A stretch of DNA of 64,000 nucleotides from Prorocentrum cordatum (lineage: Eukaryota; Sar; Dinophyceae; Prorocentrales; Prorocentraceae). The stretch lies in contig CAUYUJ010019348.1 in NCBI GenBank assembly GCA_963575745.1, positions 287,001 to 351,000 on the forward strand, given 5' to 3'. The translations under genes and the position numbers were made by a program. The notes under the pieces were generated by a model that was not told the origin of the DNA, searched no databases, and saw nothing but the letters and a program-made list of their open reading frames with translations. Below are positions 17,289 through 47,115 of this stretch, piece after piece (position 1 is the stretch's first letter; each line of letters opens with the position of its first letter).

Positions 17289-18096
17289 CGGTGGATGCGC
17301 GGGAGTTGGCGGCGGAAGCGCTGGCCGGAGGCCGACGGCACTTGACTGAACGGTTGGGCCGAAAGCTATGGACAGTTAGCTTTCTCCACAACGGAGCTGC
17401 AAATTGTCTGCTGTGGTCCGGTCCACTGGGTGACCATAAGTGGCATTTGCGCCATGGCTCTGCACGTAAAGGAGGGGAGGAAGGGACGGGAAGAGGGAGG
17501 AACAAAGGGGAGAAGCGAAGGTCGTAGCTCTAAACGGAGCAGCAGAAATAGAAATCCCCCGGAACGGGGTAGGAACTTCTCGGAGGCATGCTTACGTACT
17601 GCCTTCAGTGCGCGGCTGCATGGGAAGAGTCTTCGACGGCGCGTTGAGACGAGACGCCGGCGATGAACGAAACCGCCTATGGACATTGGACTTCGGGCGA
17701 TTGCCCGATGTTTTTTTCTATCAAGGCCGCGACAGCAGAATCATCGGCAAGTCACTCGGTGGGGCCCGGCGCCAGCACAAAGTGCCGCTAGCATTGGACC
17801 AAGGTCGAAAAATGTCCGAGCCGGCAGCCCACCGGCCACGCCGCTTCCATTGTTGGAGAGCGCGCGCGCGAAACCAAGGTGCCCTGGAGTCTTCCGGGAC
17901 AAGCAAAAAAAATTGCTGGCAGCATTTCTTTTCCACCAGGCCGGACAACCATGGGAGTGCACGAGCTATGAGGGCTCGGGGCGGGTGTGCCCAAGCCTTC
18001 TGTGCAACGATGTCTACTTCGAACACCGTCCGTTCCGGGAAGAACCATCGAGGGGCCTGCGCTGAGAAACCCTCGCGATCGGCAAATAAATCTACG
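17289..18096. other. Spacer between RT/RNase H and Gag-like ORF
   Basis: About 800 bp with no ORF that shows a motif. The open frames at 17366-17686 and 17608-18297 are of biased composition and overlap the ends of real genes. Confidence 0.4.
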
Positions 18097-19868
18097 TCAA
18101 AGGGTCCGAATGTCCGCCATCGTACTTTTCTTTACGACGGCGTCCAGGAAGGGATCTGCATTCCAGCGTTGTGCGAAGTTCGCATCTCGCGAACCCTCGT
18201 CGCTGATGATATGTTGTTTGCCAGCTATATGTTCAGCCATGCACCAACAACCTGCGCGCCTTTCGGCGCGCTCAAAACTTTCGGCCAAGTTCTCTAAGGA
18301 ACGGGCGTGGCCGAAACGAAATTTAATGCAATGTACTGCCGCCGAATTGTCGCGTCGAAAGACGACGCGCCACCCCCGCAGCCACGCTTCCTCTGACCGG
18401 GCGACTTCACGTGCCACCCACAGTTCTTTAAAATTTATGGCTTCTGCATTATCGGCTAAATTTGAAAAACCGTCCGGCCAAACGCCGGCCCGGACAACAC
18501 CTGAACCACAAAGGTGGTAAGACCACCCGTGCATTTTAGACGCGTCCGTTTCTACTGCACGAACACAGCCGGCAGCGGCTAGATCACGCCAATTTTCAAA
18601 ATCTACAGATTTCGGCCCCCAACGTGAAAGGGGCCCGGCTTCGGCGCGCAATGGCCGCGAAGGGACTATAGAAAGAGCGCGCACCCACCACTCCAAATGC
18701 GATTTGCATTGGGAAGACAAGCGCACGGGTGGGTCAGCAGACGGGTTACGCGCCCACGCAGCATATACATTAGCAGCGTTCAAGGTTGCCCATGCATGGT
18801 GCAACCGGCGGCGGCCTTGTAAAAAGACTTCGCTAATGCGGGATGCGAGGCCCGCAGCTGAAGCAAGCGCGCGTGCTCGAAGAGTACCCGCAGCGCTAGC
18901 TTGGAGCACTTCCTGAAATAAGCGGATACATTTCGCGCATTTTTCTGGCTCAACTGACAACTCGTTCCGAACTGTGTCAAATACCCATCCCACCCAACAT
19001 TGCTTCTGCGATGGAGGGCGGATTCCGTTGGATTTACAGCTGATGGGAACACCAATGCACAGAAAGAAACGGACAGCACCTGCAAGTTTATCTGAAGCTT
19101 CATCTTGGGTGGCCCCGCCGCCGAGCAGGTCGTCGACGAAATCTGCCAGGCACACTTGTTCGTGGAGTTGCAATAACCGGAGCAATTCTTCCAGGCTCTC
19201 GTCGTTGATCCCTGGCGCGGGCGCTAACCCCATTGGTAAGAAGAGGTACTCACCGTATTGTTGCCGGCGAGGTGAGAAGAAACCGAAGTTCTTTGCATCC
19301 CCAGGTTGGGCCCTCCAATTGTAGAAAGTATCAGCCAAATCCAATACAAACAGCCAGCCTCGTGGAAGAGTCCAGGACAGAGCAAGGTCCAAGGAGCCGT
19401 AGTTGACCGGGACCGGGGCGACTGCAGGATTGACGCCACTACGGGTGAAATCTACAATGAGGCGGGCTTTGAATTTCTCGAAAATGTTATCTGAAATTAC
19501 ACCTGGTTTTTCTTTCAAAACAAGCCCACATGGGTTGACAACCAAATTCGGGGGACGCTCACCACGAGGGAAAAAACGCATTTTCCAAAGACGTCCAACC
19601 TGTCCCACTCGTGCTCTGCGAACGTCACGTTGTCGAGTAAAGACTTGTAGTTCTGGAAACATTCGGGCCGAACTATCTTCGTGAATTCCAGGGGTCGGCC
19701 GTGTTCCCACCAATGTAAGAAGTTTGGATTCGCGCCTAAGTCGCGAAGAAGGTCGATATTCAGACGGAGACCTGCGATACCACGGAACCACATTGCCCGA
19801 GCATCTGCGCCCACAACTTCTGAACGCAACAAATCCACAATCGAAGACATGATTACGGATGGAAGCAC
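18097..19868 (-). pseudogene. DIRS-A reverse transcriptase / RNase H, one frameshift
   Basis: The start at 19868 (frame ending 19515) reads LHWWEHGRPLEF and NYKSLLDNVTFAEHEWDRL. The continuation PPNLVVNPCGLVLKEKPG lies in a second frame (19791-18097), so one indel near 19580 separates them. Palm motif A is FVLDLADTFYNW (D151 of the second frame). The catalytic loop is ADFVDDLL (D220, D221), an F-V-D-D variant of YxDD. The RNase H domain follows, with ETDASKMHGW and RRDNSAAVH carrying the acidic residues. The protein would copy element RNA into DNA. The single indel could be real decay or a sequencing error in this draft. Confidence 0.8.
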
Positions 19869-20053
19869 GTGCTAAGAACTACTTGAGCACGGGCAAACGG
19901 CTGTGGACATTTGTCAGGGTGCCAGTGCCGCACCGTGGCTAAGGCACGCAGTGACTTCACTGAAGAGCCACCCGCCCCAACCCAAAAAGTGGGATAGGGG
20001 CGTAACCCGCTAAGCGGGACAAAACAGCGACGCGAGGAAGGGCAGCCAAACAC

Positions 20054-20480
20054 CCATACTTTGGACCCACAAAATGGGAAACGAGCGTGCTCAACCCCAT
20101 CCTCGCCACGGCAGTGCGGGACGGATGAACACCGGGCACTAAGTGCCCGAGCCGACGACCCACGAAATGGGACGCCGGTTAGGCCTGCGCCGACGACCCG
20201 CTAAATGGGACGCCGGCCAGGTGACACTGGCAGCGCGGGGGCGTGACTCCCCGTGCCAGGCGGGCCACGGAAGTGCACCGCTTGGCTGCCTGCGCCGATG
20301 GAGGTCTCTTGCTGCAATTGCGTATGCTGTTCGGCCGTTGCCAAAGATACACATGTATGTATATATTATATCGCATATGTGCAATATGAATCAAAATACA
20401 TCAACCCCTCCTTTCTCGAATCACGGCAGCTGCAGATCTTCGAATTACCGAAAGGCTACGCCCTCGTACAATTCCAATCA
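20054..20480. repeat. DIRS-A terminal direct repeat, right copy
   Basis: Counterpart of 12605-13004, including the ATATATTATATCGCATATGTG stretch. It carries an extra 27 bp near 20284-20310. Confidence 0.85.
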
Positions 20481-20482
20481 TT

Positions 20483-20840
20483 CCCTAGGCAACCCACATC
20501 GATTTCCGACTCCGGCTTCGACTCCAGCTCTTACGGGCTCCCACGGCATACCCACCAGCAGGTCCCAAGAAGGCCCGACTCCAGTTTCGATGCCAGCTCC
20601 GACTCCAGCTCCGACTCCGGTTCCTAGGAGCCCCCACGGTACACCCACCAGCAGGCCCAATGAAGGTCGACGTTCCCAGGGCAACCCGCATCGATTTCCG
20701 ACTCCGGCTTCGACTCCGGCCCCCAGGGCCCCCACGGCATACCCGCGAGCAGGTGCCAAGAAGGCCCGACTCCGGTTTCGATGCTGGCTCCGACGGCATA
20801 CCCAGCAGCAACGCACATCTGCAATAACGGCACAAACATC
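20483..20840 (+). repeat. Tandem minisatellite of about 180 bp period
   Basis: Two main units begin GGCAACCCACATCGATTTCC (20500) and again near 20682, each built from shorter GACTCCGGCTTC and CACGGCATACCC repeats. The open frames through it are repeat artefacts. Confidence 0.7.
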
Positions 20841-21089
20841 CATGCGCGACATTTGTTTGGTTTGCTATGGCAGCACGGTATGGTGTGGGCGACATATATT
20901 CAATCGGCTACCGCATTTTACTCTATATTCTCTCCAAAATATGGGGCACGAATAGGCGAAGCATCCAACCCGGGACGGGTGCCGCGCGACCGTGCGATGT
21001 CGGCGTTACGATCCTTAGGGTTTTGCGCAGACCAACCGCGCAACGATTCGGGTGCTTTTGGAACCTCTATGCCGGTACCGGCCGCGATA
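20841..21089 (+). mobile_element. LINE-A, 5' segment (split by MULE-1)
   Basis: The frame ending at the MULE border reads ARIGEASNPG and RDRAMSALRSLGF. LINE-C has KALSALRELGI at the equivalent place (63800), and GEASNPG is a recurrent start motif in dinoflagellate LINE proteins as I know them. The frame continues exactly into 33805 when MULE-1 and one TSD copy are removed (PVPAA then LRSNTAIG). Confidence 0.75.
21080..21089. other. TSD of MULE-1, left copy
   Basis: GGCCGCGATA, matching GGCCGCACTA at 33804-33813 in 8 of 10 positions. A 10-bp TSD is in the MULE range of 8-11 bp. Confidence 0.8.
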
Positions 21090-21096
21090 TAGAGGG

Positions 21097-21700
21097 TGCC
21101 GGGTCAGAGACTCAACAACCGTTTCAGAGATTTTAACAACCGGGTCAGAGACTTGGCCAAGCCGTGTCAGAGACTGGGCCCAGCCGTGTCAGAGACTGGA
21201 ACAACCGGGTCAAAGACGTAGACGAGCCGTGTCAGAGACTTGGACGAGCCGTGTCAGAGACTTGGACGAGCCGTGTCAGAGACTTGGACGAGCCGTGTCC
21301 GAGACTTGGACAAGCCGTGCCAGAGACTTGGACGAACCGTGCCAGAGACTTGGACGAGTGTCAGAGACTTGGACGAGCCGTGTCCGAGACTTGGACGAGC
21401 CGCGTCCGAGACTTGGACGAGCCGTGTCCGAGACTTGGACGAGCCGTGTCCGAGACTTGGACGAGCCGCGTCCGAGACTTGGACGAGCCGCGCCAGAGAC
21501 TTGGACGAGCCGTGTCCGAGACTTCGACGAGCCGTATCCGAGTCTTGGACGAGCCGCGCCAGAGACTTGGACGAGCCGTGCCAGAGACTTGGACGAACCG
21601 CGCCAGAGATTTGGGCGAGCCGTGTCAGAGACTTGGACGAGCCGTGTCAGAGACTGCGTCCAGCTGTGTCAGAGAGTAACAACCGGGTCAAAGATTTGGA
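21097..21700 (+). repeat. MULE-1 left terminal 22-bp repeats
   Basis: About 27 units of GTGTCAGAGACTTGGACGAG type (period 22), with GGAACAACCGGGTCAGAGAC variants nearest the end. The inverse array lies at 33595-33797. Such subterminal arrays probably bind transposase in MULEs with long TIRs. Open frames here encode only SETWTSRVRDLDEP repeats. Confidence 0.95.
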
Positions 21701-21744
21701 GAGAGCGTGATCCACCGCCGCTTTTCTGTGGAAAATTGCCAACC

Positions 21745-22820
21745 TTTTCCTCCGGAACCCGGGGGTCCCCCTCCCCCCATCCCTCCGAAAATCCCCCCTG
21801 CCCCCGCCGGATCCCCCCCCCCTTCCCCCCTCCCTCCCGGCCAAACCCCCCCCCTCCCCTCCCCCTCGAAAACCGGGGGGGGTCACTACCGGTTCGAAAC
21901 CCCCCCCCTCCGGATCCGGAAAACCGAGAGGGGTCACTACCGGTTGGACCCCCCCCCCCCCTCGAAAACCGGAGGGGGATCACTACCGGTTCGACCCCCC
22001 CCCCCCACGCACCGCCAGCAAACGACTCCCGGTCCCTACCACCGCTCGCATCACATCCCCCACTGTTGTTCCCAGCACCACTGTCCTCACCACCACTGTC
22101 CCCGCTGGTTCCACCACCGTCCCTATTGTCCCCACCAATGCCCCCACCACTGTCGCACTGTCCCCACTGTTCCCACAACTGTTCCCGCCACGGTTCCACT
22201 CTCCCCACTGTCTCCACGGACCCAACCACTGCCTATCCCCATTGTCCCCACTGTCCCACTGACTCCTCCGCTGTCCCACTGAGCTGTCCCACTGTTTCCA
22301 CCGCTGTCCCCACTGCCCCCACCACTGCCCCCACTGTACCTCTGTCCCATGGTCCCACCGCCGTCCTCGCCACCGCCTTTACCAGTGTCTCCACCACCAT
22401 TGTACCCTCCACAGTCCCAGTGTTCCCACCTCATTCCCACTGTCCCCGCACCACTGTCCCCACCACCACCGTTCCCACCACTGACCACTGTCCCCCCTGT
22501 TCCCACCATTGTCCCCACCACTGTCCCCACCACTACCGTCCCCACCACTGCCCCACTGTCCCCCCACTGCCTCCACCACCGTCCTGCTGTCCCCTCACCA
22601 TTGTCCCCACCAACACCGTCCCCACCACTGTCCGCACCCCCACTCGGTTTTCGAGGGGGGAGGGGGGGGGTTCGAACCGGTAATGACACCACCCCTTTTC
22701 ATGATGAGCTGGGACGGGGGGAAGGGGTTCGAACCAGCAGTGACCCCACCTGGTTTTCCGGAGAGGCGGGGGGGGGGGAGGGGTTCGAACCGGTAGTGAC
22801 CCCCCCCGGTTTTCCGCCAG
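21745..22820 (+). repeat. MULE-1 subterminal C-rich hairpin arms and TGTCCCC minisatellite
   Basis: Blocks of C runs with GAAAACCGG and GGTCACTACCGGTTCGAA at 21860-22000 are repeated in inverse orientation at 22640-22820. The interval 22040-22640 is a 12-15 bp TGTCCCCACCACTG minisatellite. Together they could fold into a large hairpin. GGTTCGAACC inside resembles a polymerase III B box by chance or otherwise. Confidence 0.85.
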
Positions 22821-22849
22821 CAGCGGTAGAACACGCTCTTTCAAGACTT

Positions 22850-23400
22850 GGAGGAACCATGTCAAAGATTGGAACCACTAGTTGACTTTATTTGTTTTGT
22901 TGGGTTTGTTTCTTTACCAAAACCCCCGCCTAAGTTCTATTTGCATATATGTTCGCACGGCGGATTTGTCGGCTCCTTCCCCGTTTTCCCGCTCTCTTTT
23001 TGGCTAGTTTTTCTCCTGTTGTTTCGCCCTTTCCGTCTTCACTGTCCTGTCTTCCCTTTTCCTCCGCCAAAATCTTTGGCGCGGCGCGAGTCCTCGGTTC
23101 CCCGGCCCGCGGTGTTCACCGCGCCGCAGCTTCAGAGACAATTGTAAAACTCTTTTGAAAAGGACGACCACGACCGCGGCGACGGCCCCGGAGATTACGT
23201 GATCAAACGCGTCCATATGAAATCCGAATCGGCGCATCTAAATATAGTAACGCATGTAAAAATGCCGAAATGAAAACCCGAATCGGTGCATACAGTCACG
23301 CTATATTCGGTAATATATTTTCGCTTTCCGCATCGCACGTAACAATTCTTTATTTACCACAACATTCTATTACCACCTCGCCCGAACACATAAAAAAGAA
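22850..23400. promoter_or_regulatory. Candidate 5' module of gene A
   Basis: No ORF with motifs. The stretch 23080-23190 (GCGGTGTTCACCGCGCCGCAGCTTC, then AAAAGGACGACCACGACC) resembles 26325-26420 upstream of gene B (GCGGTTTTCGCCGCACCGC). A shared module before both genes may be a promoter or a duplicated segment. This is inference. Confidence 0.35.
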
Positions 23401-23514
23401 TGCAAATGTGCACGGCCGAAACACTCGGATACATAAGTAATGTGACTTTCGCCCTCCTCCTCGTTCTCCTCCTCCTTTCCTCCTCCCTTTCCTTCTCCTC
23501 CTGGCGACTGCCGC

Positions 23515-23680
23515 TTCAGACAAAGAACACAGCATTTTCAGAAAAAAATGCCGCTTCGCAAAACGCAACAACCGTTTCAAAAAAAAACGCTTGTCGTTTC
23601 AGAAAAAGCGGGGACCGCTTCAGAAAAAATGTTTTCCTTTCAGAAACAACGGCACCCGCTTCAGAAAAGGGCGTGCAATG
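23515..23680 (+). repeat. GTTTCAGAAAAA repeats, left of gene A
   Basis: About seven units of CGTTTCAGAAAAA with variable spacers of 20-25 bp. The inverse array stands at 25815-25985, so gene A is bracketed by inverted arrays. The same arrangement exists in MULE-2 (48095-48260 and 45895-46030). Confidence 0.85.
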
Positions 23681-23953
23681 TCCGGGGCAGTGCCATTCCT
23701 CATCAAATTCAAATTCATACGCCCCTTTGAGTACCCGGCGGACGCTCAACGGACACGCGACACGGCGATCGCACGAGGAGTGCGGTCGCGGACGGGTGCT
23801 CTACGCAGGGCTGCCGGAGGTCGCGTGCGCGGAGGCGGGGGGAGAGGTGGTCGCGGTGGAGGGCGCGACCATGCCGACGGAGGCAGGTGCCGGGGGAACA
23901 CTGGGCGAGGCCGCGGCCGTGGCCGGACAAACGCGACCCCGCCTCCAGCAGCA

Positions 23954-24643
23954 ATGGTGCCGATCGAGGACGCGGGGAATCAGAAGACCGTCCTCGTTGA
24001 AGTGGGGGTGCAAGAGATGCCGTCGGATCTTGGCCCCCCGTGGCCATTCTTGACAGCGCGCGTTCCGAGAGATTGCGCAACGGGCGTGATCTACGACGCA
24101 GTGGCGAAGCACCTAACGGCCGAGAGGGCGCTTGCCAAGTCGCGCGTCTCTCTATCGCGTCCGCGCGCGTTCGCGCGAACACGCGCGGGCGTGATGAGAA
24201 ATGCAAGCGCCTGCCCCCTCAGGGCACCTACGCGCTTCGAGCTGGCGTGCGTCGGCACCGGGGAAGTCGTGTACACGGGCGCCCCGCTCGACGCAGACTG
24301 CGAGCTGGAAGTGGTGATGTACGAAGACGTGGACTCACTCGACCTGGCGGGCGAGGGCGTTCCCAGCGACGACGAGGTCCCCATCGACGAGGACGACGAC
24401 GACATCGAGGTGGTCGTCCAGAGCGGGAAAGACGTGCTGACAGTGCTGCTCGTCCCTTGGGGCACCCCCGCACTTGCCATTTACCAAGAAGTGGCTCAAT
24501 TGCTGGACGTGCCCTTAATGCAGACCAGGACGCGATACACTTTCATCCTTGCCAACCTTGACAAAGGATTCTTCATGGCGCCCGATATGGAGGTGACGGA
24601 GCCGCTGCGGCTCGGGGTGCAGAAGGAGGTGGCCGGCGGTTGA
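23954..24643 (+). CDS. Gene A of MULE-1: tandem ubiquitin-like protein ending in Gly-Gly
   Basis: Two exons, 23954-24138 and 24223-24643, with a GT-AG intron of 84 bp. The intron is supported by MULE-2, where it is 98 bp (not a multiple of 3) while the exons keep identical lengths of 185 and 421 nt. The first Ubl-like domain spans FLTARVPRDCATGVIYDAV to TRFELACVGTGEVV and CELEVVMYED. An acidic linker (DEDDDDIE) follows. The second domain runs from VVVQSGKDVLTVLLVP through LLDVPLMQTRTRYTFIL to PLRLGVQKEVAGG, then stop. A terminal Gly-Gly is what conjugatable ubiquitin-like proteins need. An open, RG-rich frame continues upstream to an ATG at 23678, which MULE-2 lacks. The Ubl call is by eye only. 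Confidence 0.55.
   Translation: MVPIEDAGNQKTVLVEVGVQEMPSDLGPPWPFLTARVPRDCATGVIYDAVAKHLTAERALAKSRVSLSRPRAFARTRAGVMRNASACPLRAPTRFELACVGTGEVVYTGAPLDADCELEVVMYEDVDSLDLAGEGVPSDDEVPIDEDDDDIEVVVQSGKDVLTVLLVPWGTPALAIYQEVAQLLDVPLMQTRTRYTFILANLDKGFFMAPDMEVTEPLRLGVQKEVAGG
24139..24222 (+). other. Intron of gene A (MULE-1)
   Basis: Donor AA/GTCGCG, acceptor CCCCCTCAG/GGCACC. Splicing gives A-K-A-P-T-R-F, and MULE-2 gives A-K-V-P-T-R-F despite different intron lengths. Confidence 0.7.
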
Positions 24644-24739
24644 CGCGCGCTCTCATGCGGGCGCGCGCGCGCTACGGGAATTGGATAAAATGGGAAGGTT
24701 CGTCGAATGATGAGGAGGCTGGAATGATGGGAAGAATTG

Positions 24740-25495
24740 GGCCCAGGGTGGGAGAAATGCAGGAGTCGGAATCGGAATCGGAAGTGGAGGAAGATCGAAC
24801 GGGAATCGGAGTCGGGGCCGGACGAACATCCCGAGCCGGAGTCGGAGCCGGAGGAGGCCGGAACGGGAGTCGGAATCGGAGTCGGAAATGGAAGAAAACC
24901 GAACGGGAATCGGAATCGGAGCCGGACGAAAATCTGGAGCTGGAGCCGGAGTCAGAGCTAGAGGAGGCCGGAACGGGAGTCGGAATCGGAGTCGGAAGTG
25001 GAGGAAGATCGAACGGGAATCGGAGTCGGGGCCGGACGAACATCCGGAGCCGGAGTCGGAGCCGGAGGAGGCCGGAACGGGAGTCGGAATCGGAGTCGGA
25101 AGTGGAGGAAGACCGAACGGGAATCGGAGTCGGAGCCGGACGAAAATCTGGAGCTGGAGCCGGAGTCAGAGTTAGAGAGGCTGGAACGGGAGTCGGCATC
25201 GGAGTCGGAAGTGGAGGAAGGTCGAACGGGAATCGGAGTCGGGGCCGGACGAACATCGGGAGCCGGAGTCGGAGCCGGAGGAGGCCGGAACGGGAGTCGG
25301 AATCGGAGTCGGAAATGGAGGAAGACCGAACGGGAATCGGAGTCGGAGCCGGACGAAAATCTGGAGCCGGAGCCGGAGTCGGACCCAGAGGAGGCCGGAA
25401 CGGGAGTCGGAATCGGAGTCGGAAGCGGAGGAAGACCGAATCGGAATCGGAGCCGGACAAAAATCCAGAGCCGGAGTCGGAGCTGGAGGAGGCGA
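24740..25495 (+). repeat. GGAATCGGAGTCGGA minisatellite with higher-order period near 105 bp
   Basis: Repeats of GGAGTCGGAATCGG are combined with AACGGGAATCGG and CCGGACGAACATCC into units of about 105 bp. It follows the gene A stop and is shared with MULE-2 (46270-47010, with deletions). All six frames are open, so the long ORFs (SESESE, GVGAG or RSRSR repeats) are artefacts. Confidence 0.95.
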
Positions 25496-25634
25496 ACTCC
25501 TTCCGTGCCTCTCCCGAATCCAACCCTCCCAATCTCACTCGCGCCCGCTTCACTCCCCCGTCGCCCTCCTGCCTCCCCCAGCCTCCTCCGCGCTCCCCCC
25601 GAAGCCAAGCACGGCCATGCGGCAACGACCGTTT

Positions 25635-25635
<1 letters not shown>

Positions 25636-25725
<90 letters not shown>
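25636..25725 (+). repeat. A90 homopolymer
   Basis: Ninety consecutive A residues where MULE-2 has CCAGAAAAAACGGCGGG with six. The expansion is therefore specific to MULE-1 or an assembly artefact. Confidence 0.9.
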
Positions 25726-25726
<1 letters not shown>

Positions 25727-25814
25727 GGCGGGGGTCCGGGTGCAAAAGTTCAGGGCCACGCGGTCCAAGGTCGGGCTGAGGCCCAGGGGCCCGGGCAACA
25801 AATCGGGGGTGGGG

Positions 25815-26140
25815 CATTTTTCTGAACCGCGCGCACTTTTTCTGAAACCTCCCACGTTTTTTCTGAAACAGCGCGCCCTTTTTCTGAAACTGCTCAGCCT
25901 TTTTCTGAAACGGCACGCCCTTTTTTCTGAAACCGGCTTTTTTTTTCTGAAACTGTTGTGAACTTTTTCTGAAACGGTTGCCACCGCTTCTCCTCCTCCT
26001 TTCCTCCTCCTCTTTCTCTTCTCTTCCTCTTCCTCCTCCTCCTCCACTTCCTCCTCTTTCTCCTCGCTCCTCCTCCTCCTCTGCCCCCCCCCCCTTCCTT
26101 CTCCTCCTCCTCCTCCTCCCTCTTCCTCCTCTGACACCGA
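25815..26140 (-). repeat. Inverse TTTTTCTGAAAC array and CTCCTC tract
   Basis: About eight units of TTTTTCTGAAAC at 25815-25985, reverse complement of the array at 23515-23680. A CTC-rich tract follows at 25985-26140. Confidence 0.85.
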
Positions 26141-26149
26141 CACAAAGAA

Positions 26150-26644
26150 GAAACAAGAGCAGCCGATAACTCAACAAAAAACCTTTCTGCAAATATTTCC
26201 AACGGAAACCCGAAATTGCATGGCGACGCCGTGCCGACGATGACGAAATTCCTTCGGTGTCTTCAGCACCGCAACCCGCGCCTTTGGTCTCGACGGCCTC
26301 CTCAAGGAAGGCACATGAAGCCCAGGGCTCCCTGGCTCGCGGTTTTCGCCGCACCGCAACTTCGGGGGCCGTTTTAAAATGCCTTTAAGAACGACGACGG
26401 CCACGACGACGTCGACGACGACAACCACGGCGACGGCATTGGCGAGCACGGGAAGCAGGAGCAAAACGACGACAACGGCGACGACAACCATGATGACGTC
26501 GAAAACGACGGCGACGGAAGGAAGACGATATTGACGACGAGCAAAACAAACGACAAACGACGACATCCCGCAGCTATTTCGGCTTAGCTTTCCGTGCATT
26601 ATATAATGTACGTATTGTTGCATATCATCTTCTACATATTGGGC
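26150..26644. promoter_or_regulatory. Candidate 5' module of gene B
   Basis: No ORF with motifs. It contains GCGGTTTTCGCCGCACCGC and an ACGACGACGGCC stretch (26385-26520), resembling the module before gene A, and TTGCATATCATC shortly before the first ATG at 26645. The role is inferred from position only. Confidence 0.35.
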
Positions 26645-26882
26645 ATGGAACGTGGAACAATATACTGCCTCGGTGGGGGCGGCATGGCACGCCCCAACCA
26701 ACCGTGGGCATCATTCTCGGAAGAAAACATGCGCGGTTTCTTACGTTACCACCCGACGGTCACGCAGGAGGAATACAAGGCAGAATTCTCGAACCAAGTT
26801 TCTGTCTATCAGCGCGAAGGTCCGCGACGAGATGGCGGCACTGAAATTGATTCAGCACAGCGGTCACACGGAACGCTCTCTT

Positions 26883-26893
<11 letters not shown>

Positions 26894-26926
<33 letters not shown>

Positions 26927-26932
26927 TCTCTC

Positions 26933-26970
<38 letters not shown>

Positions 26971-27055
26971 AGCCTTCCAGTCTCTCAGTCTCTCAGTCTC
27001 TCAGTCTCTCAGTCTCTCTCTCTCTCTCTCTCTCTCTCGCTTTTTCTCTTTCCCT
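26894..27055 (+). repeat. CT dinucleotide tract near exon 1/2 of gene B
   Basis: A CT/CTTT run ends in TTTCCCTATCAG, a good 3' splice site. In MULE-2 it is 42 bp shorter. Because 42 is a multiple of three and the frame stays open, coding Ser-Leu repeats cannot be excluded. Confidence 0.8.
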
Positions 27056-27350
27056 ATCAGGTGGACGAACCGCGTTCTGGCGCAACGTCTTCGCCATGCT
27101 CAAGAGCCGGGGGGCGTTTTATTACAGCGTCTTCCGGCACCGGGCGCACCTAGCGTTGATGATGGGGTGGGCCCACCAACCAGAAAAAGGCGCAGTGGCG
27201 GAAGAGATTCCAATACTGCCGCCCCGGCCTCAGCCCCGGCTGGCGGGCAATCAGCCGCGAAAGGAGAGCGTCTAAGCGATGGCTTGGGGATGGAAGAAGA
27301 ACATTCGAAGCGCCGCGTCGTCAAGGAGAAAGAAGACTTTACCCCTCAAG

Positions 27351-27454
27351 GTAAGCCCACCCCGTGGTCCCAGTCTTTGACAGCACATTACAAAACATAT
27401 TTGATTGGCAAAGCGAAAAAAAAACGATTACAAAACGCCGCAGCCGGGACGCAG
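27351..27454 (+). other. Intron 2 of gene B (MULE-1)
   Basis: Donor CTCAAG/GTAAGC, acceptor GGGACGCAG/AAGGAC. The phase joins FTPQ to EGPFES, and MULE-2 conserves both sites. Confidence 0.65.
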
Positions 27455-29602
27455 AAGGACCTTTCGAATCTATGTATTTGGCTTGCAAAGAACATGAATA
27501 CGAGGACGGTTCAACGTGCAAGACCGTCTACAAGTACACATTGCGAGAAGGGCCCCTGCAATGTTCCAAGCGGGGTGCGTGCGGGAGTAAGAGATCGGCT
27601 GCCTACTCTGCCTTCTTGAAAGATCAAATTGCAGACGCTATGGCCGCCCATCCTCGGTCAGTTTCCACGCAGAGAAGGCGGCAAGTCGCCGCGGGAACGA
27701 CGCCCAAGGAAAACCCTACTGACTCGCAGGTTTACAAGAAAAGGTCAAGCCATCGCGCGGAGCAGCGAGATTTCGGCGGGTGTTCCCCGGATGATCTTTC
27801 GAGGGTCGCCCGAGAGTTTATGCCGAGGCCAAGCGATCCTATTTGGCGGCTTACCACCGATTGGGAAAAGTCAAAGCTAGACGACAAGATCTTCGTTTTT
27901 CGTTCTCGCATGTTGACCAACGCCGGCGTGGACCTTCTGAGACAACAAGGAGCCCGAATCCGATTGTGCTGCGATGCGACGCACGATTTGGGTTCACAAA
28001 AATTCAAGTTGCTTGCTTTGGGCGCGCTGGGCGTCCACTTCCGCAAAGGAGAATGGTGCAAAACTATTGTACTCTGGGTTTCGCGGCGCGTGAAAAAGAG
28101 AACAAGCCGGCAGTCAGCGCCATCTTCCATTCCGTGATCGAATACTTAAAGTCTACATACAATATCGATCTCCAAGCGGCCACCGGGTCTCTATATCTTG
28201 ATGGCGGAACAGCTTTGTTAGCTTCTGCCGAAGAGTTTCCCCCGAACTACGCGGTTGTCAGGTGCGTGCAACACGTGAAGAAAGATATTGCGGCCAATGG
28301 GAAATTGCGGGTGGGCCCCCGGAAGGTGAGGGCCATGCATATGCACGTGCATAGGTCAGCATATCTTCACCCCTACGCGTTTCATGTATTTTGGAAGAAA
28401 AAATTTCACGACCTTCGCCAGGATGGGCAACACCAGCTGGCCGATTACCTCCAAGGCAATCACTTCCAGAAGATCGATGGCATATGGACCGCGCCCTGGC
28501 AGTGCTCCGCTTCCCGTTTGGACGCGCCCTTCTCGTCTTATTCCAACGACGCAATCGAAACCTTGCGGTCAATCATCGACACCGCTACCGAGGATTTGGC
28601 GAAGAACATCGATATCCTAGTGGAGCTGCGGGAGCTCAACAATGTATTTGGGACCTGGTGCCTCGTCCACCTCCATGCTCCGTCCTCTGCCACCCCCCCG
28701 CCCCCCGCCCGTTGTCATTGCCATTCCGTCCTCCCCTCCACCCCCTGGCTCCTCCATCCTGTCTTTCGTCGTCGTCGCCGCAATCGCCCCTTTTCCTTCT
28801 CCCCCAATGCCCCCCCCCAGGTTCCATGGTAACAAGACTGCCGACATCAAGGCTGGAATCACGACCGGTCCGAATCCTTCTCAACCGGCGCCTTTTCCGG
28901 TGAAAGGCGAAGGCCAGCATTCCACAAGACACGAGGGCACCAAAAAACAACTGCGCCGTCTCACTGCTCGGAGTATACTCAATTTGGAAGAAACTACGAA
29001 GTTCGCCTTCTAAAGCGAATCAGGTGGAGAGAAGTACTGGGCGTGTCCGAAATACGACGGCAACGACTACAACGAGCAGGTGTTAGGACTGTTCACGACC
29101 GCTGTGGCCAACGCGACGTCCACTGCCCAACGGGCGATTGCATTGCGCACGCTGGGGATAACCGCTGGGGGCGGCGATGGCGACGTCGACGCGCAGAAGC
29201 TGATGCAAATAATGCGGCAGTATACTTTGGTTACGGTTACAGCCGACCAGAAACTCATCGAGAGCCACAAAGATTATTGCGAATATGGCCAGACGGAACA
29301 CATATTGTGGCGACAGCGCAAAGAGAACTGGGCACAACATGACCAACTGAGGGCGACGCCTAAAGCACGAGCTACTGGCAGGACGCCGGGACCTCCAAAG
29401 AAAGGAAGTCGTGGAGGAGGTAGGGGTCGTGGAGGAGGTCGCGGCGGTAGAGGTCGCGGAGGGCGCAACCCAACTCCTGCAGCACGAGCACCACCAGCAG
29501 CATCTGCAGACGCCGATGCGGACGCCCGCATGGAGTTGGAGCTCTTCGGTGGGAGGGCGATCGCCGCAACACGGAATGGCGGGGGGCGGGGGAAGCCAGG
29601 AG

Positions 29603-30026
29603 GTAAGAGGTACGAGGTGGTAGGAGGCAGGGCAAGAAGAAGCAGGAGGAGGTAAGGAGAGGCAGGAAGAGGTAGGAAGAGGTGCGAGAAGGCACGAGGA
29701 GGTAGGGGGAGGTAGGAAGAGGTAGGGGGGGGTAGGAGGCGGCAGGAAGGGGTAGGAGGACGTAGAAGAGGTAGGAGGAGGCAGGAAGAGGCAAGAGGTA
29801 AAGAGAGGCAGGAGGAGGTAGGAAGAGGTACAAGAAGGTACGAGGAGGTAGGAAGATGTAGGAGGCGGGTCGGATCTGAAATCCGAAGGGCTTGGCGGTG
29901 TCACGGAATACGCCCTCGCCATCTTTATTCCATGCCTGCCCCTTTCCTCCACCCCTCTCGCTCCCGCCGCTCCTCCCCCTCCTTTTCCTGCTCCTTCTCA
30001 TTGTCCTACTTGGTTTCGCTCCCCAG
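29603..30026 (+). other. Intron 4 of gene B with GAGGTAGGA minisatellite
   Basis: Donor CCAGGAG/GTAAGA, acceptor CTCCCCAG/GTGATG, both phase 1. Most of the intron is a GAGGTAGGAAGAGG-type array. In MULE-2 a 14-bp deletion removes the acceptor. Confidence 0.65.
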
Positions 30027-30377
30027 GTGATGACTACGGCGCTGCCCCCGCCGACGGCACAAGCCGATATTCCTTCGACTCGGACGAGGCTGCGGAATCA
30101 GCATTAGCACCGCTACCAATGACGAGGTGGAGCCGTTCTTTCGAATCTGGCGGTCAAATTGTTGATTTGGATCTTGCAGTTTGCGTTGCGGCATGTATGC
30201 CGGCATGGCAGGGCGACGCAGGACCGAGGAGGCCGCTTCTGAGCATGGACGTTCCTCAGGGCAGCCTCGCCAAGGCAATCTACAAGGCAGTGGCCAACCG
30301 TCTGTCGGACACCGGAGCTCGTGCCCGCGACGAGCAGCAGCCAGCCGCTCAACTTACCCTGGCAAGGACAATTTTCG

Positions 30378-31230
30378 GTCTGCGAAGTGGGAAAAGGTGG
30401 GAGGCGGTAGGAAGGGGTAGGAGGACGTAAAAGAGGTAGGAGGAGGCAGGAAGAGGCAGGAGGAGGTAAGGAGAGGCAGGAGGAGGTCGGAATAGGTGCG
30501 AGAATGTACGAGGAGGTAGGAGGAGGTAGGAAGAGGTAGGAGGAGGTAGGAAGAGGTAGGAAGGGTATGAGGACGTAGAAGAGGTAGGAGGAGGCAGGAG
30601 GAAACAAGATGAGGTAATGGGAGGCAGGATGAGGTAGGAAGAGGTGCGATAATGTAAGAAGGGGTAGGAGGAGGTAGGAAGAGGTAAGAGGAGAGATGAA
30701 GCGGTAGGAAGGGGTAGGAGGACGTAGAAGAGGTAGGAGGAGTGCGGAGACCAGCGCCTCGCCTGAGGCATGCTCACAGACTGCTCAGAAATCACAGGAC
30801 GTCACAATCCGAAACAAGCAAACCGCCTGATACATCCTCAACATCAGTCTGTGTGGGTGATTCGATGAGTGAGTCTGCGTGTGATGAGCGAGTGTGAGTG
30901 TGAGTGTGCCTCAATATGAGTGATGACTGAGTGCGAGTGCCATTCAGTCTAAGCGATGAGTGAGTCTGGGTCATGAGTGAGTCTGAGTCATGAGTGAGTC
31001 TGCGCGATGGGAAAGTCTGAGTGAGGCGGAAAAGGAGAGGGGTGAAGGTTCTCTCAGCACGGTCAAAATTATAACAAGAACCCATCTTAGGATATGGGGA
31101 ACACGCGGCCCCGCTCCCCTCTCATCCGTATTCTTCGTTGTCCGCGTATCCCCTCTCTGCCTGATTTCCCTTGTGCTCGTGGTATTATGTTTCCGTTCCG
31201 CCTGAAGGACATCTACCACGTTCAGCTTAG
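30378..31230 (+). other. Intron 5 of gene B with two minisatellites
   Basis: Donor ATTTTCG/GTCTGC, acceptor TTCAGCTTAG/TCAAAG. It contains a GAGGTAGGA array (30410-30750) and a TGAGTGAGTCTG array (30845-31020). The splice joins the two halves of the Ubl-like domain in frame. Confidence 0.55.
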
Positions 31231-32039
31231 TCAAAGAGGGCACTGCCGATGTCGTGTCGGAGCAGTCTGCCCTGTACCACTACTGCGCCCTCGAAGTTGT
31301 GATCATGGAGCTGGCCGGGGACAGCGCGGAGTGCGAGGGCGAGGGCAAGGCTGCGGCGCTCGAGATCCCCGACAGCGACGTGGAGATAGTCGACGCTGGC
31401 GGCGGGGTATCTTTCCCCGCGCCGCCGGACGGGCTTTGCCTCTATTCTGTCGCCATCGCCGCGCGGGACCCCGTGGCATGGATGCAAGCTAGAGACGACG
31501 AGGGCTGGATGCACGACCGCATCAGAGAGCGCGCGGAGCGGCTCGAGGCCAAGGCCATCTCGGAACGTCTCATCGCTTGCGTGGAGCGCCATGGCAAACA
31601 AGACGAAGCCGCTCGCTTGCGCCTCGCGGGCGCGGATGGGCATCCGGGGATGGGCGAGCTTCGGTATCTCGCAGAAGTGCTTGGGGGCCGTATATTGCTT
31701 AGCGGCGCCCACAATGCCGAGAACCCCGTCATCTCGTACGGGGATGATGGCGGCCCAATGCTCTTCCACGTCAAGTTCAGCCCGTGTATGGGCGCCGACG
31801 GCATCATGGCAGATCACTGGGTTCTCCTGGAAACGTACATGAGCAGAGGGCCCCTCATCGCGTACACTTCCGACGCAGCCCTCGGGCGCCGGGCGCCCGC
31901 GAGGACGCCCGGTGATTTCGCGGAGCCCGATGAATCCGGGGACGACCTCGAGCCTGAGGTCGAAGAATCCGAGGAGGCCGATTGCGAGGGCGGTGAGTCG
32001 GAGGAGGCCGAAGACGACTCGGAAAAGGACTACCTCTGA

Positions 32040-33300
32040 ATTTCTGACGCCACGGAATACTCCTTCTCTGTCCTGTGTCTTGTCGTTCGCTTTTTCCGCT
32101 CATCACCCGGGTTAGCTGCGCTGACCCCTTCCATATTTATTCCTGGCCGCGCTGCGAATTGCCCGCAGGCAGAAAAAAAAACACTGGAACGCTCTCGCGA
32201 TGAGAGGATCCGACGATGCACTTGCTACCGCTTCGCGGAATCAGGAGGACGTGGGAGGAGAAGGTAAGAGGTAGGAGGAGAAGGTATGATGGGGGAGGGG
32301 TGGGAGGAGGTAGGATGAGATACTCTATGTTATGGAAACAATTGGTTATCTAAGAATTGGCGTCGCCAACCCCCCGGCCAACCCTCTGAGTAACACAGTA
32401 ACGCAACGCCTGCTGGAAGCGAGCGGGCACGCTCGGACTGAACTTCCTGGCAACAACGATGGCAGCGCGATGACCATCGCGTGCGATCGGGCACGCATGG
32501 GATGAACTTCGCGGCAGAAGCGGCGGCCATGCGATGTGCATCATAAGCGAGCCGGCACACTCGAAAAGAGCTCCCCTCCGACATCGCCGGCAATGCGACG
32601 CGCGGTGCCCGCGAGCCAGCACGCTTGGAGTGCGCTTCTTGGCCTCGACGCTGGCAGCGTGATGATCATCAAGTGTCGCGCGAAATGGGCCTGCTGCTGC
32701 TCCTCCTCCTCCTCCTCCTTCTCCTCATTATCCTCCTCCTCCTCCTCCTCCTCCTCCTCCTCCTCCTCCTCCCTCTGCCACCCCCCCCTCACTGGATGCT
32801 CATCGACAGAGTTGCAAGGGTGTCCCAAGCGCAATGGGCCAGATAACTTGATGAGTGGCCAGAGCATCTCGGAGCCCAGTTCGGAGGATGTTTCGCGCAA
32901 AACGGGCCTGCTCATCCTCCTCGTCTTCCCCCCCCCCTCTCCATTGATGCTCTTCTGTGACGAGGTCCTGGGCCACCCAGGCCAGATAACCCGAAGTCCG
33001 GGCATCTCGGATGCCAAAATTCCGAAGCCAATTTCACGCGAAAACGGCCAGACTACTTCAATAACCTCATATTGAACCACGAGATGTGAGGACGTCCCGA
33101 GCGAAACCGGCCAGATCACCTCAAGCCAGGGCATCTCGGAGCCCAGAGGTCCGAGGATGTCTGATGCGCAATGCGCCGGATCACTTCGAGAGCCGCATCT
33201 TGGAACTGAATGTTCTGAGGATGTCCCAAGCCAGTCGGCCGAGTCATCCCAAGTCAGGGCATCTCGGAGCCCTGGGTTACGAGGATTTCTCACGCGACAC
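32040..33300 (+). repeat. MULE-1 right subterminal region with about 105-bp repeats
   Basis: After the gene B stop there is no further gene. GGGCATCTCGGAGCCC words recur near 32865, 32998, 33130 and 33260 with GAGGATGT and GCGCAA, showing diverged tandem units of about 105-130 bp. A TCC tract lies at 32697-32770. Confidence 0.7.
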
Positions 33301-33339
33301 GGGGCTCCACATCTCCTTCATTATCCTGCCAACGCTCCT

Positions 33340-33487
33340 CCTTCTCCTCCTCCTCGGCGGCGGCGGCAGCGGTGGCGGCGACGACGACGACGAAGACGAC
33401 GACGACGACGACGACGGACGACGACGGCGGCGACGTCGACGACGACGGGCTGGGCCGAGCCGGCGCGCGGGCCGGGCCGGCCGAGCT

Positions 33488-33518
<31 letters not shown>

Positions 33519-33590
33519 ACGACGCAGACGACGACGTCGACGACGACGGCGACGACGGCGACGACGACGACGGCGACAAAACAAAACAAA
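33340..33590 (+). repeat. GAC/GGC trinucleotide microsatellite
   Basis: GACGACGAC and GGCGGCGGC runs interrupted by GCCGGCGCGCGGGCCG. It is open in all frames (poly-Asp, poly-Arg, poly-Thr) and is not a gene. A mirror copy lies at 38285-38520. Confidence 0.9.
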
Positions 33591-33594
33591 TGAC

Positions 33595-33803
33595 TTGGTG
33601 GTTCCTCCAAGTCTCTGACCCGGTTGTTCCAGTCTCTGACGCAGCTGGGCCCAGTCTCTGACACGGCTCGGCCAAGTCTCTGACCCGGTTGTTCCAGTCT
33701 CTGACACGGCTGGGCCCAGTCTCTGACGCGGCTCGGCCCAGTCTCTGACCCGGTTGTTCCAGTCTCTGACGCGGTTGTTCAGTCTCTGACCCGGTTCCCA
33801 GCG
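33595..33803 (-). repeat. MULE-1 right terminal repeats
   Basis: Nine to ten units of CAGTCTCTGACCCGGTTGTTC type, inverse of the left array, ending CCGGTTCCCAGCG at the element border. Confidence 0.95.
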
Positions 33804-33813
33804 GGCCGCACTA
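33804..33813. other. TSD of MULE-1, right copy
   Basis: GGCCGCACTA, partner of 21080-21089 (8/10 identical). Confidence 0.8.
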
Positions 33814-36497: not shown

Positions 36498-36653
36498 CAC
36501 AGCGCTGCGGGCGCGGCGCTCTCCGGCGTCCGCCACGCGGTCGCAGCAACCGTCCTGCGATGGGTGCGGCGGCGCGTCGGGCGGCGCTGCCCCCGCCGAG
36601 CACAAGGCGGTGGCGGCGCGCGCCTCGACGGCGACGCCTGGCTGCTACAACCC
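36498..36653. repeat. DIRS-B terminal direct repeat, copy 1
   Basis: 156 bp beginning CACAGCGCTGCGGGCG and ending GCTGCTACAACCC, repeated at 36976-37131 with few differences. It marks the border where LINE-A is interrupted. Confidence 0.85.
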
Positions 36654-36975
36654 GGGCGGATGTGGGTGGGGCGAAACGCGCCCAGGCCAGAGATGGCGCC
36701 CCGCCTGCCGCGGTCAAATTATGATTTCACCTGTACGCGGCAAGGCTGGCAGGCACCGCGGTGAGAGCTCGCGTTCGCTCCCTCCGCGGCGGCCTAGCCG
36801 CGGCGCAGCCGACAAAGCCGCGGCTCCATCTTTCTCGCGTTTCGCGTGCTGTTCGCCTCGCGGCGACGCGCCCCTCGCAAGCTCATTCGCTCGCTGCGTG
36901 GCGCGCGGACGCACGCGCAGCGCAGCCTCGCTGCTGTGCCCGCGAACGACATTCGTGCCTCGGCTGTTCGCTCAC

Positions 36976-37131
36976 CACAGCGCTGCGGGCGCGGCGCTCT
37001 CCGGCGCCCGCCGCGCGGTCGCAGCGACCATCCTGCGATGGGTGCGGCGGCGCGTCGGGCGGCGCTGCCCCCGCCGAGCACAAGGCGGTGGCGGCGCGCG
37101 CCTCGACGTCGACGCCTGGCTGCTACAACCC
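36976..37131. repeat. DIRS-B terminal direct repeat, copy 2
   Basis: Partner of 36498-36653. Two copies 322 bp apart near one end recall the split repeats of DIRS-like elements. Confidence 0.85.
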
Positions 37132-37289: not shown

Positions 37290-38059
37290 GCTGGCGGAGA
37301 GGGCCATGCCCTCGCCCGTCGCAGCGCCCTCCAAGGCAGGCTGGTCTAGGTAGGCCTTGAAGGCGCCGAACCTTCAGTTACCGGCCCGCAAAATGGTTGC
37401 GAGGCCACCTTGTCCGAGGGTCTCCGCGTGGCCGCGCCGCAGGCACCTAGAGGTGATACGGGCGGCATTGGGGAGCCCCGCCGCGCGCGCCGACCTGCGC
37501 AGGTTGCGGGCAACCGCCGGCGCGGGGAGAACGCGCCCTGCCTTGGTCGGCTTCGCCAAGTGGGCGAAGGGGGAGGCACCCGGCGCTATATCGCCCAGCA
37601 GGGTGCGCGGGGCGTGCACCGGGCAGGTCGCGGTGCATATGCGACACCAGCACGAACGTCTGACAGCGCTCGGCCTAGGCATGTGCTTGCGCCTCGAAAG
37701 GTGGAGGACGACCGCTTCGCCCGTGGTGAAAAGCACGATGGTCGGCGCTGGGCGGTCAAGTTCCTCCTGCTTGAAACGGAAATTGGCCGCCATCGCGGGA
37801 TCGCCAATGCGGATAAGCAGCGCCTCCGAGGGCAGCCTTAGGGCTAGGGCAAAGGCGACCACGAACAGCGCTCGCACCCGAGGATCTGGCACGTGCGGCA
37901 GCATTGCGACTAGCGCCTTCCGCGTGACAGGAGGAGGTCGCGGGCCGGGCTGAGGCGCACGGTGCTTGATCGCGGTCTTCGCGCGCGCTACTGCTGGGCT
38001 GCGGAACGCCGAGCGATCGAGACCTAGAAGCACGCATGCCTTGTCGGCCTGAGCCTTAT
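37290..38059 (-). pseudogene. DIRS-B tyrosine recombinase, catalytic half
   Basis: On the minus strand it runs from KACVLLGLDRSAF through VVAFALALRLPSEALLIRIGD (first catalytic Arg) and LSRRKHMPRPSAVRR (Lys region) to ITSRCLRRGHAETL. The box-II His, usually TSHCLRRG, is Arg here. A TGA follows RAGN where relatives have Trp, then the frame continues RFGAFKAYLDQP, with the nucleophile Tyr at 37350-37352. So two inactivating changes are visible: His to Arg, and a nonsense codon 11 codons before the Tyr. The N-terminal half of the gene lies at 50700-51420. Confidence 0.75.
38050..38059. other. TSD of MULE-2, left copy
   Basis: TGAGCCTTAT, identical to 50690-50699. Confidence 0.95.
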
Positions 38060-38275
38060 CGCTGGGAACCGGGTCAGAAACTGAACAACCGTGTCAGAGA
38101 CTGGAACAACCGGGTCAGAGACTGGGCCGAGCCGTGTCAGAGACTGTGCCCAGCCGCGTCAGAGACTGGAACAACCGGGTCAGAGACTTGGCCGAGCCGC
38201 GTCAGAGACTGGGCCCAGCTGTGTCAGAGACTGGAACAACCGGGTCAGAGACTTGGAGGAACCACCAGGTCATTT
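38060..38275 (+). repeat. MULE-2 terminal repeats, short array
   Basis: Units of GGAACAACCGGGTCAGAGAC, beginning CGCTGGGAACCGGGTCAG at the border. It corresponds to 33595-33803 of MULE-1. Confidence 0.95.
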
Positions 38276-38279
38276 GTTT

Positions 38280-38344
38280 TGTTTTGTCGCCGTCGTCGTC
38301 GTCGCCGTCGTCGCCGTCGTCGTCGACGTCGTCGTCTGCGTCGT

Positions 38345-38378
<34 letters not shown>

Positions 38379-39060
38379 AGCTCGGCCGGCCCGGCCCGCG
38401 CGCCGGCTCGGCCCGGCCCGTCGTCGTCGACGTCGCCGCCGTCGTCGTCCGTCGTCGTCGTCGTCTTCGTCGTCGTCGTCGCCGCCACCGCTGCCGCCGC
38501 CGCCGAGGAGGAGGAGAAGGAGGAGCGTTGGCAGGATAATGAAGGAGATGTGGAGCCCCGTGTCGCGTGAGAAATCCTCGTAACCCAGGGCTCCGAGATG
38601 CCCTGACTTGGGATGACTCGGCCGACTGGCTTGGGACATCCTCAGAACACTCAGTTCCAAGATGCGGCTCTCGAAGTGATCCGGCGCATTGCGCGCCAGA
38701 CATCCTCGGACCTCTGGGCTCCGAGATGCCCTGGCTTGAGGTGATCTGGCCGGTTTCGCTCGGGGCGTCCTCACATCTCGTGGTTCAATATGAGGTTATT
38801 GAAGTAGTCTGGCCGTTTTCGCGTGAAATTGGCTTCGGAATTTTGGCATCCGAGATGCCCGGACTTCGGGTTATCTGGCCTGGGTGGCCCAGGACCTCGT
38901 CACAGAAGAGCATCCATGGAGAGGGGGAGGAAGACGAGGAGGATGAGCAGGCCCGTTTTGCGTGAAACATCTTCCGAACTGGGCTCCGAGATGCTCTGGC
39001 CACTCATCAGGTTATCTGGCCCATTGCGCTTGGGGCACCCTTGCAACTCTGTCGACGAGC
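38280..39060 (+). repeat. MULE-2 GTC/GCC microsatellite and 105-bp units
   Basis: The mirror of 33340-33590 (here 38285-38520) is followed by the diverged GGGCATCTCGGAGCCC-type units in inverse orientation (38575-39060), then a GGA tract at 39080-39150. No gene. Confidence 0.85.
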
Positions 39061-39868
39061 ACCCAGTGAGGGGGAGGTGGCAGAGGGAGGAGGAGGAGGA
39101 GGAGGAGGAGGAGGAGGAGGAGAATGAGGAGAAGGAGGAGGAGGAGCAGCAGCAGGCCCATTTCGCGCGACACTTGATGATCATCACACTGCCAGCGTTG
39201 AGGCCAAGAAGCGCACTCCAAGCGTGCTGGCTCGCGGGCACCACACGTCGCATTGCCGGCGATGTCGGAGGGGAGCTCTTTTCGAGCCTGCCGGCTCGCT
39301 TATGATGCACATCGCATGGCCACCATTTCTGCCGCGAAGTTCATCCCATGCGCGCCCGATCGCACGCGATGGTCATCACGCTGCCATCGTTGTTGCCAGG
39401 AAGTTCAGTCCGAGCGTGCCCGCTCGCTTCCAGCAGGCGTTGCGTTACTGTGTTACTCAGAAGGGTTGGCCGGGGGGTTGGCGACGCCAATTCTTAGATA
39501 ACCAATTGTTTCCATAACATAGAGTATCTCATCCTACCTCCTCCCACCCCTCCCCCATCATACCTTCTCCTCCTACCTCTTACCTTCTCCTCCCACGTCC
39601 TCCTGATTCCGCAAAGCGGTGGCAAGTGCATCGTCGGATCCTCTCATCGCAAGAGCGTTCTGCCGCAATGTTTTGTTTCTGCCTGCGGGCAATTCGCAGC
39701 GCGGCCAGGAATAAATATGGAAGGGGTCATTACAGCTGACCCCGGGCTGGCACGAACGAGAACGCGAGGGCGAGAGGAAAGTGCAGCAATGGAGGAGGGG
39801 GGTGATGAGCGGAAAAAGCGAACGACAAGGCACAAGACAGAGAAGGAGTATTCCGTGGCGTCAGAAAT

Positions 39869-44850: not shown

Positions 44851-44904
<54 letters not shown>

Positions 44905-47010: not shown

Positions 47011-47115
47011 GCCCAATTCTTCCCATCATTCCAGCCTCCTCATCATTCAACGAGTTTTTCCATGTTTATCCCAACTCCCGTAGCGCGCGCGTGCGCGCCC
47101 GCATGAGAGCGCGCG

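Follow-up and report, generated by a model that had tools for sequence, protein, structure and literature searches.

A Mutator-like element family with composite ends whose main gene probably joins a DDE transposase to a predicted OTU-type protease

Introduction

Ulp1 proteases are known from Mutator-like elements (MULEs) (PMC13317346; PMC2836005), and OTU and VTD domains from Helitrons (PMC9741609). Ginger1 transposases carry OTU or Ulp1 domains at their C-terminal end (PMC2836005), and the table entry of a Hydra MULE, MuDR-6_HM, names an ‘Ovarian Tumour Gene’ (Table 1, group 14; PMC6446971). Helitron VTDs have been shown to be active, while the OTU domains of transposons were described as untested for activity as of 2022 (PMC9741609). 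Here we describe two copies of an element located in a 64,000-nucleotide stretch of DNA assigned to Prorocentrum cordatum (the ‘window’; bases 287001–351000 of contig C18499). They appear to belong to a MULE family with Foldback-type composite ends, in which a MULE DDE transposase is followed, within the main gene (gene B), by an RG-rich linker, then a small module and finally a predicted OTU-type cysteine protease at the C-terminal end; we place the probability of this reading at roughly 0.6.

Among the described systems, MuDR-6_HM resembles this family in being a MULE listed with an OTU gene. It differs in its cnidarian host, and its table entry lists no terminal inverted repeats (TIRs), indicates no target site duplication (TSD) and does not give the domain order; the cited part of that source mentions neither a ubiquitin-like (Ubl-like) module nor composite ends (PMC6446971). 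Ginger1 elements are similar in that a single protein combines a DDE transposase with an OTU or Ulp1 protease at its C terminus, but their DDE domain is of the Gypsy-integrase type, they are 2.6–7.1 kb long with TIRs of 44–270 bp, and no Ubl-like module is mentioned in the section cited (PMC2836005). We considered and rejected membership in Ginger1, since the DDE domain of the present family matches MULE/IS256 profiles and not the Gypsy-integrase type. The Kaonashi/KIU MULEs also combine a MULE with a ubiquitin/SUMO-type cysteine protease (PMC13317346; PMC2836005), but there, as far as that account goes, the protease is Ulp1, resides in one of three genes, and belongs to non-TIR MULEs (PMC13317346). 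Tm1 Mutator/Foldback elements, some of which encode a putative transposase, have comparable composite TIRs, with tandem 13–15-bp repeats and unlike terminal motifs; they differ in the length of their TSD (9 bp, versus 10 bp here), and the cited description mentions no protease (PMC3169594). The OTU/VTD Helitrons are likewise mobile elements with deubiquitinase modules, but are described as rolling-circle RepHel elements with no classical transposase (PMC9741609).

An earlier sequence-only reading of this locus had called a transposase with its own ubiquitin-like and OTU domains a new architecture. The background from which it argued (Ulp1 in some MULEs, OTU in some Helitrons) agrees with the published accounts (PMC13317346; PMC9741609), but the claim of novelty was overstated, given Ginger1 with its C-terminal OTU (PMC2836005) and MuDR-6_HM with its OTU gene (PMC6446971). 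Our searches of the open-licence PMC literature listed no paper on a transposase with both ubiquitin-like and OTU domains, nor did they turn up the combination of an OTU domain with a second module that is common to two genes of a composite-ended, 12.7-kb MULE.

Results

Gene B and its predicted OTU-type domain

Gene B lies on the plus strand in the first of the two copies (copy 1). Its exons 1 and 2 (26645–27354) are an uncertain model, carried over as previously proposed. Exon 3 (27355–28657, where 27355 is merely the start of the open frame) contains an N-terminal Cys-rich part and the DDE core; exon 4 (28821–29602) a conserved post-DDE region and an RG-rich tail; exon 5 (30027–30396) the first half of the Ubl-like module; and exon 6 (31226–32039) its second half followed by the OTU domain. 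From exon 3 onward this GT-AG model is phase-consistent, with introns of 163, 424 and 829 nt. The motifs quoted in the sequence-only reading (CDATHDL, LDGGTALL, CVQH, DAIET, the RG-rich stretch, PPDGLCLY, GELRYLAEVLGG and DHWVLLE) were all located.

The OTU frame of copy 1 is 277 amino acids long (31206–32039), with the candidate catalytic residues at Cys 78 and His 204. Two structure searches were performed, and the 50 rows listed in each were all OTU-type. Both C78 and H204 are present in six of six close copies from the genome. Database relatives (8 at E ≤ 1) show 27–44% identity, apart from one at 95%; among the seven that cover the respective motif, all retain DGLC and all retain the His. 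An Asp or Asn two residues after the catalytic His is the usual third residue of OTU proteases, and since it is absent from some active OTUs it is not defining. That position is Val in the window and in relatives P0003 and P0004, and Asp in P0005–P0007. The Pfam OTU model matched neither the window frames nor the relatives. The best PDB row for profile A3 was an OTU protein (E 0.7), sequence searches of the PDB with the OTU and DDE domains, P0001, the two modules and profile A5 returned nothing at E ≤ 0.001, and scans of viral contigs with the OTU and DDE domains found no relative.

Comparison with a 63%-identical OTU sequence on contig C10924 gave a ratio of nonsynonymous to synonymous substitution rates (dN/dS) of 0.44–0.49 over 204 codons and of 1.09 over 33 more; over these longer times the putative OTU frame is shown to be under constraint. 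We regard the assignment of the domain to the OTU class as solid at the level of the predicted fold: the structural match to OTU, with its Cys/His pair, was found, and together with the Cys and His motifs it supports the OTU-type protease first read from the letters.

The closest database protein, P0002 (from EukProt, labelled Pyramimonas sp.), aligns to 47% of the query at 95% identity. Many EukProt sets are transcriptomes, and the match hints at expression. The Pyramimonas label, set beside a window whose host was guessed to be a dinoflagellate, with which its genome size of 4.13 Gb is compatible, also raises a question of host identity or contamination. A further relative, P0001 (398 amino acids), displays upstream of its OTU domain a second region with a Cys followed by Gly-His-Ala, which by eye resembles another cysteine protease domain.

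The DDE core

The window's own frames did not match the Pfam MULE model, and a protein database search with DDE residues 1–410 yielded 5584 candidates, none at E ≤ 0.01. The DDE domain was aligned across copy 2, the copy on contig C20270 and five relatives at 34–39% identity (five of the 110 genome matches to the DDE query were fetched). The first two Asp residues are kept in all seven aligned rows, and Asn-Asn-x-Ile-Glu in all four rows that cover the motif. PF10551 (MULE), allowing E up to 1, was matched by four of the seven, with a best value of 3.7e-5, and the four do not include C20270 or the window's own sequence; one of the seven matched Transposase_mut at 0.1, and four matched NCBIfam IS256 (best 4.4e-4). 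The D, D, CxxH and E motifs occur in order, with spacings of 75 and 118 in copy 2; the third is CxxH in copy 1 and C20270 and CxxR in copy 2. An AlphaFold model of the DDE domain built from three sequences reached a pLDDT (a per-residue confidence score) of 31 and was used for no search. The earlier assignment is borne out by the PF10551 matches among family members and by the ordered motifs, and judged on these the predicted DDE core is that of a MULE.

Element copies, ends and target duplications

Copy 1 spans 21090–33803 on the plus strand (12.7 kb) and copy 2 spans 38060–50689 on the minus strand, each delimited by the inverted match to the other plus its termini. Their main colinear pieces are 87.6, 89.4, 93.7, 96.5 and 95.7% identical, in opposite orientation. 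Both elements end in inverted arrays of tandem 22-bp units, which read TAGAGGGTGCCGGGTCAGAG... at one end and CGCTGGGAACCGGGTCAG... at the other. In copy 1 the left TIR (21090–21729, plus orientation) is an array of ∼22-bp units with consensus AgCCGtGTCAGAGACTTGGaC, and the right TIR (33561–33803, minus orientation) is an array of ∼22-bp units; the inner limit of each is approximate. At its exact boundary copy 1 is flanked by GGCCGCGATA (21080–21089) and, on the right, by GGCCGCACTA (33804–33813), which agree at 8 of 10 positions; agreement of at least 8 of 10 was reached at random fixed site pairs in 0.11% of 20000 trials. Copy 2 is flanked by TGAGCCTTAT at both 38050–38059 and 50690–50699 (10 of 10). 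Because termini and a 10-bp TSD are present separately at each copy, the two represent independent insertions, and simple duplication of one locus in inversion was rejected.

The genome searched comprised 4,128,499,153 bases in 21,875 contigs. Counting the two window copies, a 10-bp TSD was present in four of the five insertions at which both ends were examined (10/10, 10/10, 9/10 and 8/10 agreement); the two outside the window were C20270 (10/10) and C9191 (9/10), and C16611 had no TSD at its two examined ends. The copy on C9245 is outside this count, as its contig begins within the left repeat. Helitrons are not known to produce a TSD. The family thus has the inverted terminal repeats and a duplication within the 8–11 bp typical of the MULE superfamily, and, judged against the description of Tm1, composite TIRs of tandem repeats of the Foldback/Tm1 type (PMC3169594).

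The sequence-only reading placed the gene at 26645–32039 and noted a second copy. The second copy is present on the minus strand (43063–44541 and 39869–40702); the interval holds gene B, but the element extends far past both sides of it and includes a second gene upstream in both window copies.

Condition of the window copies and copies elsewhere

Two lesions interrupt the transposase frame of copy 1: compared with copy 2 it has lost 1 bp after 28071, and it contains a stop at 29011–29013. Copy 2, on the minus strand, has an open transposase frame of 492 amino acids (43063–44541; exon 3 with read-through of the intron), an open exon 4 frame (42240–43256) and a 277-amino-acid OTU frame (39869–40702) with ADHL instead of ADHW; a 14-nt stretch with the exon-5 acceptor is missing from it, and it has CVQR in place of CVQH. 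Across the 25720–32108 alignment, 154 substitutions separate the copies. The dN/dS values in the proposed frames, each from few changes, are 1.06 and 1.63 for the DDE pieces, 0.48 for exon 4, 0.57 for exon 5 and 0.69 for exon 6. Both copies look like unconstrained, broken copies, and because the counts are small these ratios are uninformative on coding.

At least 54 OTU matches and at least 110 DDE matches were found in the genome. Six of the OTU matches, both window copies included, are close copies at 93–100% identity, and the rest are more diverged: C10924 at 63% (two rows), and the remainder at 27–53%, many of them within open frames of more than 1000 amino acids. The four close copies beyond the window lie on C20270, C9245, C9191 and C16611. 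In all six the 277-amino-acid OTU frame is open, and the DDE domain, exon-4 region, exon 5 and OTU domain follow one another in the same order and on the same strand. Since six close copies share this order and database relatives keep the motifs, the arrangement reflects more than chance.

The DDE and exon-4 matches are interrupted in C9191 and C16611, and the DDE match is split in C9245. When C20270 was spliced by the copy 1 model from its DDE match onward, the frame ran uninterrupted for 1053 codons to a terminal stop and contained the catalytic motifs; among the four further copies, this one is thus unbroken from exon 3 on. Its intron-4 donor is GA, the single non-GT donor in the model; dinoflagellates accept GA splice donors.

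Two other groups of long frames contain related domains. Frames of ∼2000 amino acids on C8824 (locus L048, 1–5556, minus strand) and C15145 (L051) have a related OTU near the N terminus, and that on C8824 has an AAA_30/AAA_19-type helicase domain (with a weak PIF1 match) near the end of the part read; these point to another multi-domain element or gene that shares this OTU family. On C4565 (L053, 4263–8837) and C15184 (L052), frames of 1525 and 1529 amino acids combine an OTU-like domain with what by eye resembles the P-loop region of a superfamily-3 helicase; they are possibly virus-like, and the C4565 frame had no Pfam match.

Gene A and the shared module

In copy 1, gene A (23678–24643, plus strand) is a single frame of 321 amino acids, comprising an RG-rich part and modules A1 and A2 and ending in Val-Ala-Gly-Gly. 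Its counterpart in copy 2 (47119–48179, minus strand) is split over two frames and ends in Val-Thr-Gly-Gly. These C termini resemble that of a mature ubiquitin-like modifier; of the window's 643 stop-to-stop frames with 60 or more amino acids, 5 end in Gly-Gly, gene A's own copies included.

Gene A aligns to the spliced exons 5 and 6 of gene B across their junction (two-sequence E 5e-10). The score of the gene B module (module B) against A1 was reached by 0 of 2000 shuffles and that against A2 by 5 of 2000; for A1 against A2 the number was 1255 of 2000. In global comparisons of A2, 19 of 1000 shuffles scored as high for SUMO1, 21 of 1000 for NEDD8 and 127 of 1000 for UB, a weak similarity; for A1 and B against the same three proteins, 274–586 of 1000 did. 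Alignment of the modules to UB, NEDD8 and SUMO1 with hhalign was negative, and no ubiquitin-like family appeared among the Pfam and PDB rows for the shared module. The ubiquitin-like domain of the sequence-only reading is therefore a real module, common to genes A and B, but its ubiquitin-like identity is unproven.

The gene A segment is absent from the four extra close copies; therefore either gene A is not needed in every copy, or those four are deletion derivatives.

Internal repeats and neighbouring sequence

Five TTCAGAAA-type units (23529–23675, plus strand; spacing 61, 21, 20 and 21) lie just upstream of gene A, and eight TTTCAGAAAAA-type units, reversed on the minus strand (25817–25975; spacing 20–22 bp), lie upstream of gene B. 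CCG-TCAGA is common to the internal consensus and the 22-bp terminal unit, a likeness noted without a chance control. The internal arrays are putative binding sites; with each unit spanning two turns of the helix, a transposase might well bind them cooperatively.

The spacer between the elements contains a direct repeat (36498–37131; 156 nt at 97%, 478 bp apart). At 12605–20483 two pieces (231 nt at 98% and 176 nt at 94%) are directly repeated ∼7.45 kb apart, and enclose, on the minus strand, a weak RVT_1 (reverse transcriptase) match (E 0.0016) and a tyrosine recombinase match (PF00589, E 3.3e-8); the whole may be a DIRS/Ngaro-like retroelement.

Discussion

One protein or two, and the role of the OTU domain

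A single product running from the DDE core to the OTU domain is likely, since the phases match, the splice sites are kept in most copies and the order is colinear in diverged copies; an exon-4-like stretch also follows the DDE domain on C5380 (E 9e-11). This strengthens, from genomic sequence, the fusion proposed in the sequence-only reading. Several observations weigh against it and would fit two genes, namely one for a MULE transposase whose last part is the RG-rich tail (RARRSRRR, then a stop) and, farther downstream, a second one encoding the Ubl-like module together with the OTU domain, each transcribed on its own. The exon-4 frame meets a stop soon past the proposed donor, intron 4 interrupts every frame in the four copies (of six) that were read, C20270 has no GT donor there, and an in-frame Met is available within exon 5. 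C10924 carries exons 4–6 in order (41–67% identity), and no DDE domain was found within the 9.7 kb fetched upstream of its OTU; DDE-like matches do lie ∼12 kb and ∼50 kb downstream. On the other side, exon 4 is still colinear with exons 5 and 6 in C10924, its donor is GT in five of the six close copies, the phase (1) matches, the exon-5 acceptor, exon-5 donor and exon-6 acceptor are retained in all four extra copies, and gene A already holds an RG-rich stretch and the same module in one frame. We consider two separate genes unlikely, although the most credible of the alternatives.

Alternatively, the OTU domain might be a passenger, a piece of a captured gene that does nothing for the element. 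Gene capture is described as common in MULEs (PMC13317346), and a comparison by eye did not find the contigs that carry the top DDE relatives, at ∼40% identity (C16559, C13752, C11958 and C5380), among the OTU matches listed, a list that is a lower bound. A useless fragment is nevertheless improbable, given the dN/dS of 0.44–0.49 over most OTU codons, the frame that stays open in every close copy, the motifs retained in distant relatives and the hint of expression from P0002. A more plausible, if still doubtful, alternative is that the protease counters silencing by way of chromatin ubiquitin, as VANDAL anti-silencing genes do, and does not stabilise the transposase. The KIU genes (VANC genes with a Ulp1 domain) are reported to cause hypomethylation of related elements (PMC13317346), and ∼21-bp arrays stand upstream of both gene A and gene B; but these may equally be sites for the transposase.

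Possible mechanism and significance

Under the preferred reading, that of a fused transposase and protease, the protein would bind the 22-bp repeat arrays at the element ends and would cut and paste with a 10-bp stagger. The OTU domain would arrive at the transposition complex in cis, where it could take ubiquitin, or some related tag, off the transposase itself or off local chromatin or repair proteins, so that the complex might survive or repair might favour the element. A far more speculative scheme, to which we give little credence, is a private kit for tagging and untagging: gene A would be a tandem ubiquitin-like protein whose Gly-Gly end is attached to targets, the transposase gene would join a related module to the OTU that removes it, and the transposon would control its own complex by its own modifier.

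Proteases of the ubiquitin and SUMO pathways recur in unrelated transposons (Ginger1, MULE and Helitron). With a multi-copy family, a conserved OTU domain, a sibling frame unbroken from exon 3 and a module present in two genes, the question of what role a deubiquitinase might have in a transposon becomes testable by standard biochemistry, and with it the idea that such an element may edit ubiquitin marks.

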